Origin: Prevotella sp.
GTDB lineage: Bacteria; Bacteroidota; Bacteroidia; Bacteroidales; Bacteroidaceae
Assembly: GCA_017478025.1 (NCBI GenBank)
Contig: JAFVGZ010000017.1
Coordinates: 44,329 to 108,328, forward strand
DNA length: 64,000 nucleotides
Direction: 5' to 3'
The notes under the pieces were generated by a model. It made no database searches, was not told the DNA's origin, and saw only the letters and a program-made list of their open reading frames with translations. Numbering within the stretch: position 1 is the stretch's first letter; each line of letters opens with the position of its first letter. Position numbers and translations under genes: made by a program. Of this stretch, positions 28,048 to 47,618 are shown one piece after another.

Positions 28048-28205
28048 CTGCCATTTTGTCAGCATAACTATTACGTTCTAATAGTAGGTCTTTTACCGCC
28101 TAATAGTAGGTCTTTTACACGGTAATAGCAGGTCTTTTACCGCCTAAAAGACCTACTATTGCAACACACTGATAGTCAGCATGTTTCGGGCTGACAAATT
28201 GTCAG
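28048..28205 (+). repeat. 158-bp element A with 22-bp-period array and near-palindromic ends
   Basis: The left end is CTGCCATTTTGTCAG (28048-28062) and the right end CTGACAAATTGTCAG (28191-28205). Inside, TAATAGTAGGTCTTTTAC-type units start at 28079, 28101 and 28123. At 28145 a fourth unit is inverted (TAAAAGACCTACTATT), forming a 16-bp-arm hairpin with unit three. A second copy of identical length and layout, reversed, is at 47461-47618. It lies 59 bp after the YjbH gene. Confidence 0.88.
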
Positions 28206-47460: not shown

Positions 47461-47618
47461 CTGACAAAATGGCAGGCTCAAACCTTCTGATAATCAGAGC
47501 GTTGCAATAGCAGGTCTTTTAGGCAGTAAAAGACCTACTATTACTGAGTAAAAGACCTACTATTAGGAGGTAAAAGACCTACTATTAGAACGCAATAGTT
47601 ACTCTGCCATTTTGTCAG
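47461..47618 (-). repeat. 158-bp element B, reversed copy of the element at 28048
   Basis: The ends are perfect 15-bp inverted repeats, CTGACAAAATGGCAG (47461-47475) and CTGCCATTTTGTCAG (47604-47618). Read on the minus strand it contains three TAATAGTAGGTCTTTTAC units and one inverted unit at the same 22-bp spacing as element A, then CTCTGATTATCAGAAGG in place of CACTGATAGTCAGCATG. On the plus strand units start at 47527, 47549 and 47571, with the inverted one at 47505. Length is identical to element A. Confidence 0.9.

Follow-up and report, generated by a model that had tools for sequence, protein, structure and literature searches.

Two copies of a 158-bp element in the window

The window, a 64-kb stretch of Prevotella DNA, carries two copies of a repeat element on opposite strands. 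Copy A (28048..28205, + strand) has a YjbH-like gene on one side and on the other a VanZ-like gene, named from a match just under the Pfam cut-off; copy B (L008; 47461..47618, - strand) is flanked by genes for an M15 peptidase and a C1-type peptidase. Copy A begins with a 15-bp quasi-palindromic end, CTGCCATTTTGTCAG (28048..28062), and a spacer. Units 1 (28080..28095), 2 (28102..28117) and 3 (28124..28139) are direct and follow one another at 22 bp; unit 4 (28145..28160, - strand) is inverted, with its dyad center 22 bp beyond that of unit 3. There follow a terminal dyad, GCAAC...CTGATAGTCAG...GTTT (28161..28186), of a kind enriched next to arrays, and the right quasi-palindromic end, CTGACAAATTGTCAG (28191..28205); everything but unit 4 is on the + strand. 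Copy B runs the other way, with its right end (CTGACAAAATGGCAG in + strand reading, 47461..47475), the terminal dyad (47481..47505) around CTGATAATCAG (47487-47497), unit 4 (47506..47521, + strand, inverted relative to its other three units), units 3 (47527..47542), 2 (47549..47564) and 1 (47571..47586), and the second end (47604..47618), all on the - strand except unit 4.

A first-pass annotation of this DNA had given the layout correctly: both copies are 158 bp long and lie in opposite orientation, and both have 15-bp ends of the form CTGnCAwwwTGnCAG, a CTGATnnTCAG block, and a spacer ending in GTTC(T) followed by three direct units at 22 bp and one inverted unit. The three direct units stand as a layout but not as exact repetition in copy A, where the third is a C variant (AATAGCAGG...), one base off. 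As the annotation also stated, no protein is encoded: neither copy is overlapped by a listed ORF of at least 80 aa. No Rfam family reaches its cut-off at A or B. The unit AATAGTAGGTCTTTTA, allowing up to three mismatches, has nine matches in the window, where chance would give 0.22, and eight of the nine fall inside A and B; the end pattern CTGACAAANTGNCAG, at zero mismatches, is confined within the window to these two copies.

Dispersed arrays in the source genome

Copy A has at least 81 matches in its own assembly (G000, 85% complete), as judged from the best 40 of 73 first-look candidates. The same 40 candidates contain at least 39 distinct arrays with the A/B unit, amounting to 159 units (loci L001-L040 were inspected, with L010 omitted as identical to L009). 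Absence of other copies, or copies found only within a larger duplication, would have told against the first-pass reading; instead, these arrays lie at different sites, although five copies with ends of the A/B kind do have some 130 further bases in common to one side. Four units are present in 26 of the 39 arrays, five in 8 and three in 5. We refer to elements with CTGnCAwwwTGnCAG ends as type I. Fourteen arrays are 158-bp type I elements, one (L027) has type I ends and measures 136 bp, that is, 158 minus exactly one 22-bp unit, and the other 24, classed by eye, are without type I ends. Some of these 24 have other inverted ends, such as CCGAAAAATAGGACA, with the complement at the far side. 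Arrays with different ends carry one common core.

A simple ORF caller (at least 90 aa) places all 39 arrays in intergenic DNA, two of them touching an ORF edge by 2-3 bp. Of 37 arrays with both neighbors available, 22 lie between tandem, 11 between convergent and 4 between divergent genes, and 2 more are at locus edges; the gaps of at least 150 bp in the window, taken for comparison, are 12 tandem, 4 convergent and 2 divergent. Placement as a promoter or terminator was rejected for want of a clear orientation preference relative to these gaps. A regulon of one gene type was likewise discarded: among 291 array-adjacent proteins, no family stands beside arrays in more than three organism labels (with G000, G170 and UBA2718 pooled as one label, and L102, L116, L126 and L132 left out), the top family being read as FtsY-like.

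Phasing and fixed architecture

Measured between unit centers, all 120 distances in G000 and 125 of 126 in the congener G170 (71% complete) are multiples of 22 bp, the sole off-register distance being 65 bp; units were called by consensus likeness (up to four mismatches) and arrays by their resemblance to copy A, a procedure that favors conserved ones. Inverted units hold the same 22-bp register as direct ones. Within the repeat, core positions 7-12 are 99-100% conserved over the 159 units, and connector positions 18-20 carry about 0.2 bit. The first-pass proposal of a defined miniature element with fixed architecture is borne out in the two species: of 26 elements identified with both type I ends, 25 span 158 bp and 1 spans 136 bp (11 of 11 at 158 bp in G170, where no length filter was applied), and 24 of the 25 have the layout +++-. 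With this fixed length and layout, the element is not a product of random tandem growth. The 15-bp quasi-palindromic ends flank the 25 copies in the manner of MITE-type terminal inverted repeats, and an end may occur in either orientation.

Conservation between two congeners

G170 contains at least 40 arrays with the A/B unit, counted in the best 40 of 82 candidates, and its matching stretches with G000 are mostly 75-93% identical. We aligned 20 array pairs as likely orthologues, 11 of them with gene-level synteny. L025/L197 and L033/L192 fall outside the set of 11, since they match over short stretches around the array only; L001 (inverted layout) and L003 and L031 (orthology doubtful) were left out of all pair counts, and L188 was dropped as the same array as L183. 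In the 11 syntenic pairs, 39 of 784 positions (5.0%) differ in the 16-bp units, which were recognized by consensus likeness and so favor conserved ones, as against 64 of 221 (29%) in the connectors and 302 of 1354 (22%) in the flanks. Moreover, the flanks contain 25 gap events, a rate that predicts 18.6 for the arrays, which have none; for the connectors alone, in a weak test, the count is 0 against 4.1 expected (P 0.017). A 13-pair count with wider flanks for differences gives 5.2% for units, 29% for connectors and 25% for flanks, and 17 pairs, doubtful ones included, agree with this, their sole array gap being one unit, exactly 22 bp. Sites and spacing are held, and the letters of the connectors change no more slowly than those of the flanks. 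That units are kept while connectors diverge disfavors gene conversion of whole stretches, since the connectors would be homogenized too.

The quasi-palindromic pieces turn over in place. The G170 counterpart of copy A, L183, keeps its place and end type with units 2 and 3 inverted, giving +---, and L004 and its G170 partner, L182, have their left ends in opposite orientations. Such in-place flips would fit template switching or recombination in folded DNA.

Genome-specific cores across Prevotellaceae

When the four-unit pattern was scanned with free cores over GTDB species genomes, at least 117 stretches were recovered. Among the 80 listed, 73 are from Prevotella, Prevotellaceae, Hoylesella or Xylanibacter records, and the other seven are from Bacteroidales bins (three loci), an uncultured bacterium (two), a Christensenella bin (one) and the AT-rich symbiont Stammera (one). 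The commonest cores include GATGCCC in P. histicola, CAGGCAC in P. aurantiaca and GGTAACC in P. bivia. Across 87 arrays under 38 labels, the mean match of the 7-nt core is 6.24 of 7 within an organism versus 2.98 between organisms, and none of 300 label shuffles reached the within-organism value; these loci were picked via the 22-bp pattern and thus carry no independent information on the period. With copy A itself as the query, six others among 150 congeners matched weakly, presumably because their core is different, and among 398 congeners (its own genome included) only G170 besides itself passes E 1e-12. In these Prevotellaceae relatives, the 22-bp scaffold is shared and the 7-nt cores are genome-specific. 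Recent copying or gene conversion could be an alternative source of core likeness inside a genome.

Relation to PINSR

The first-pass annotation knew of no described element with this layout. That holds for the exact layout: our search of the open-access PMC literature turned up no account of 22-bp phased arrays in Prevotella, and the nearest elements found there were only PINSR and BrickBuilt. It very probably does not hold for the kind of element. PINSR of P. intermedia is described as a 188-bp intergenic repeat of 177-184 copies, with function not known, without terminal inverted repeats and confined to one clade (PMC4755523); section 3.4 of that paper, where the element is described, makes no mention of 22-bp units. 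By PCR, P. falsenii JCM 15124 was positive for PINSR, and P. aurantiaca, P. pallens and P. nanceiensis were negative (PMC4755523).

Elements of the window architecture are abundant in genome G084 (two contigs, 2.7 Mb), as seen in the best 40 of 283 first-look candidates. These 40 copies have 22-bp phased units and a terminal dyad; the end-to-end distance is 188 bp in 36 of them and 173, 175, 175 and 189 bp in the others, and no row is gapped in alignment columns 26-205. The element L108 of P. falsenii JCM 15124 is identical to the G084 consensus at 164 of 206 positions, and L068 of P. aurantiaca at 154 of 208. Arrays are present in P. aurantiaca, P. pallens and H. nanceiensis despite the negative PCR results given for PINSR in that report (PMC4755523). 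Like PINSR, the window copies are intergenic, non-coding and of high copy number, with no protein; unlike it, they are 158 rather than 188 bp long, and their ends and unit cores are other than those of the G084 relatives. PINSR is very probably the same kind of element as the window repeat, a comparison drawn on features other than the PINSR consensus letters, and P. falsenii and G084 would then be PINSR carriers.

In two G084 copies, L256 and L276, the cores of units 2 and 3 are swapped relative to the other copies, and the connector between them stays put.

A proposed phased array of protein-binding sites

The element family is real, non-random and widespread; what appears to be new is the phased architecture and the core dialects of what is very probably kin to a named, unexplained repeat. 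The best explanation, to which we would give an even chance, is that these are dispersed, helically phased arrays, present family-wide, that are bound by a genome- or species-specific DNA-binding protein and act as DNA. The observed base for this explanation is the sites themselves, their strict phasing, a conservation that resembles selection on sites and spacing and does not extend to the connectors, the genome-specific cores and the intergenic placement. The working part would be the sites, usually four or five of about 16-19 bp each, with a period of 22 bp or roughly two helical turns; in many cases an IHF-like dyad adjoins them, and in many they are enclosed by quasi-palindromic ends. A putative sequence-specific protein would bind these sites on one helical face, and binding may be cooperative, building a compact nucleoprotein complex as replication initiators do on plasmid iterons, with IHF or HU presumably bending the adjacent dyad. 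In a scan with an IHF consensus, an IHF-like match lies within 50 bp of 25 of the 39 arrays in G000 against 5 of 696 background windows, and of 14 of the 40 in G170 against 4 of 679; the sites are shared by descent, and 14 of 39 and 26 of 40 arrays, respectively, have none nearby. Taken together, near-dyad sites on one face, connectors of fixed length and free sequence, a genome-specific core and the IHF-like consensus point to a protein-DNA assembly. Counting against this reading are the occurrence of both unit orientations, the shared descent of the copies and the lack of a match to the iteron-binding Rep_3 family in the incomplete G000 and G170 assemblies.

More tentatively, and as a possibility rather than a probability, the arrays may belong to a chromosome-wide nucleoprotein system of the Prevotellaceae, with dozens to hundreds of phased 22-bp arrays in each genome, one fast-evolving reader protein and species-specific core dialects. 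If PINSR is regarded as one dialect of a phased-site array found across the family, there is something concrete to test, namely a protein that reads the core, and with it a clue to chromosome organization or regulation in a main gut and oral bacterial family. The genome-specific cores could also be used as species tags.

Alternative explanations

A possible but rather doubtful alternative is that the elements are selfish, non-autonomous MITE-like DNA with no host function, and that a transposase recognizes the ends and/or the 22-bp units as docking sites. Dispersal, as a mobile element would require it, is clear: type I copies lie at different sites with ends in common, these ends are quasi-palindromic, and copy B is missing from between the same two genes in G170. 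However, the copy B site is one of turnover rather than a clean empty site, the aligned sides being separated by 441 bp in G000 and by 15 bp in G170, a difference that is not 158 bp. No clean empty site was found among eight whole flank pairs in the 71%-complete G170 (best 40 of 217 candidates), where 7.6 kb, including another type I element, separates the flanks of L006 on a single contig. Target duplication is not consistent, since by eye no common flanking bases of constant length occur in the 14 type I copies of G000. Nor was a cognate transposase found: of 29 end-like matches in G000, 5 lie outside arrays, and inspection by eye of about 200-250 bp on each side of these in the incomplete genome revealed none; a Y1 transposase was not found in the 85%-complete G000. 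Moreover, at least 11 arrays remain at syntenic sites in the two congeners, and 9 of the 11 conserved pairs are not type I elements in G000, which on a partial view means that arrays lacking the ends are conserved too; elements with different ends have one core in common. The first-pass suggestion of a mobile element therefore stands for dispersal but finds no target duplication, clean empty site or transposase behind it.

Two exact type I end sequences in G000, at G000:C41:10126-10140 and G000:C42:120418-120432, are not part of a complete 158-bp element; a mixed-core array lies some 110 bp from the second.

An improbable alternative is a structured RNA, such as an sRNA or a 3'-end or terminator hairpin, in whose transcript the inverted unit and the ends would pair. 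The predicted folds of copy A are very stable relative to shuffles (z -8.2 as DNA; -7.6 and -9.8 for the two strands as RNA). In an alignment of 24 type I copies, which does not include L183 with its inverted units 2 and 3, 88.7% of cells can pair, compared to 28-43% in slid versions. In addition, 5 of the 14 type I copies in G000 (L002, L003, L009, L011 and L012) share about 130 further, similar bases on the right-hand side; read toward the element, all five of these extensions keep the motif TAnnTTTG together with a leader, about 70 nt long, that is conserved, whereas L014 shows the likeness for the first 65 or so bases only and has no such motif. This promoter-like extension, seen in G000 only, suggests that some elements may be transcribed. 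In contrast, covariation does not exceed that of shuffles: over 41 pairs in the 24 copies, 9 pairs show double changes versus 7.6 when shuffled, and 115 of 500 shuffles were as high, so that RNA pairing is not favored. The T/C-variable site in unit 3 does not pair with its partner in 7 of the 24, 10 of the 39 G000 arrays have no oppositely oriented unit, and neither an Rfam match nor a clear gene-orientation preference was found. A stem, moreover, would need no connectors of fixed length and free sequence. The RNA structural module entertained in the first-pass annotation is thus not supported, well as the sequences pair; given the strong folding and the 88.7% of pairable cells, they may still have a structural role.

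Least probable is a neutral minisatellite of intergenic DNA that grows and shrinks by slippage and owes its conservation to gene conversion: the whole-unit gain in the likely orthologous pair L024/L201, the length of L027, shorter by exactly one unit, and the internal inversion of copy A between species would suit it, but the unit number is 3 to 5 in 39 of 39 arrays and 4 or 5 in 34 of 39, and connectors diverge like flanks while units in the same 22 bp do not, unlike the outcome of whole-tract conversion.

Comparison with known repeats

In its design, a phased protein-binding array most resembles plasmid iterons. At R6K, an IHF site lies alongside the iterons. The iterons of R6K and pPS10 are 22 bp long, sequence-specific and set in rows of four to seven, and their binding is cooperative, the cooperativity being lost at half a helical turn (PMC4980987). 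Rows of 22-bp sites are common to both systems, and phase-dependent cooperative binding is, in that account, a feature of the iterons. Iterons differ in forming single origins with an initiator gene, whereas the window family occupies at least 39 dispersed chromosomal loci with both unit orientations. No match to the Rep_3 initiator (PF01051) was found in G000 (85% complete) or G170 (71% complete), and one was found in G084, on the second, 708-kb contig. An iteron origin with a Rep_3 initiator was accordingly rejected, and the likeness to iterons is one of design only. Carriage by plasmid or phage was also discarded, with no match in plasmid or phage collections; the exact unit has 15 single matches in viral contigs, one per contig, which by a rough estimate is near chance.

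REP, BIME and REPIN sequences are short, dispersed intergenic repeats with species-specific sequence and paired hairpins. They differ from the window family in having those hairpins rather than 22-bp phased arrays, and a RAYT/REP origin was rejected, as the Y1 transposase (PF01797) was not found in G000 (85% complete); 5 of 14 control genomes gave a positive signal. The Correia elements of Neisseria are similar in being small intergenic inverted-repeat elements that have an IHF site and can invert, but neither a phased unit array nor a genome-specific core is mentioned in the sections concerned (PMC10969869). BrickBuilt, a MITE of Porphyromonas gingivalis, has 23-nt units in 1 to 22.8 copies, a leader and tail of up to about 300 bp, and IS5-type ends such as GAGACCTTTGCA (PMC4596501). 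It is alike in being intergenic, in its short tandem units and inverted ends, and in coming from a related bacterium; the window element falls outside BrickBuilt as there described, with its 22-bp unit, CTGnCAwwwTGnCAG ends and fixed, phased array of four units.

Other repeats in the source genome

A second unit core, AAAAGTTACTCTATTA, is mixed with the main core in one G000 array, L234 (G000:C42:118000-123000), and is also present in L026, L028, L037, L038 and L040. G000 has further intergenic repeats, since a separate dispersed repeat, about 50-120 bp long, turns up repeatedly in the flanks of L004, L009, L012, L020, L021, L026 and L029.
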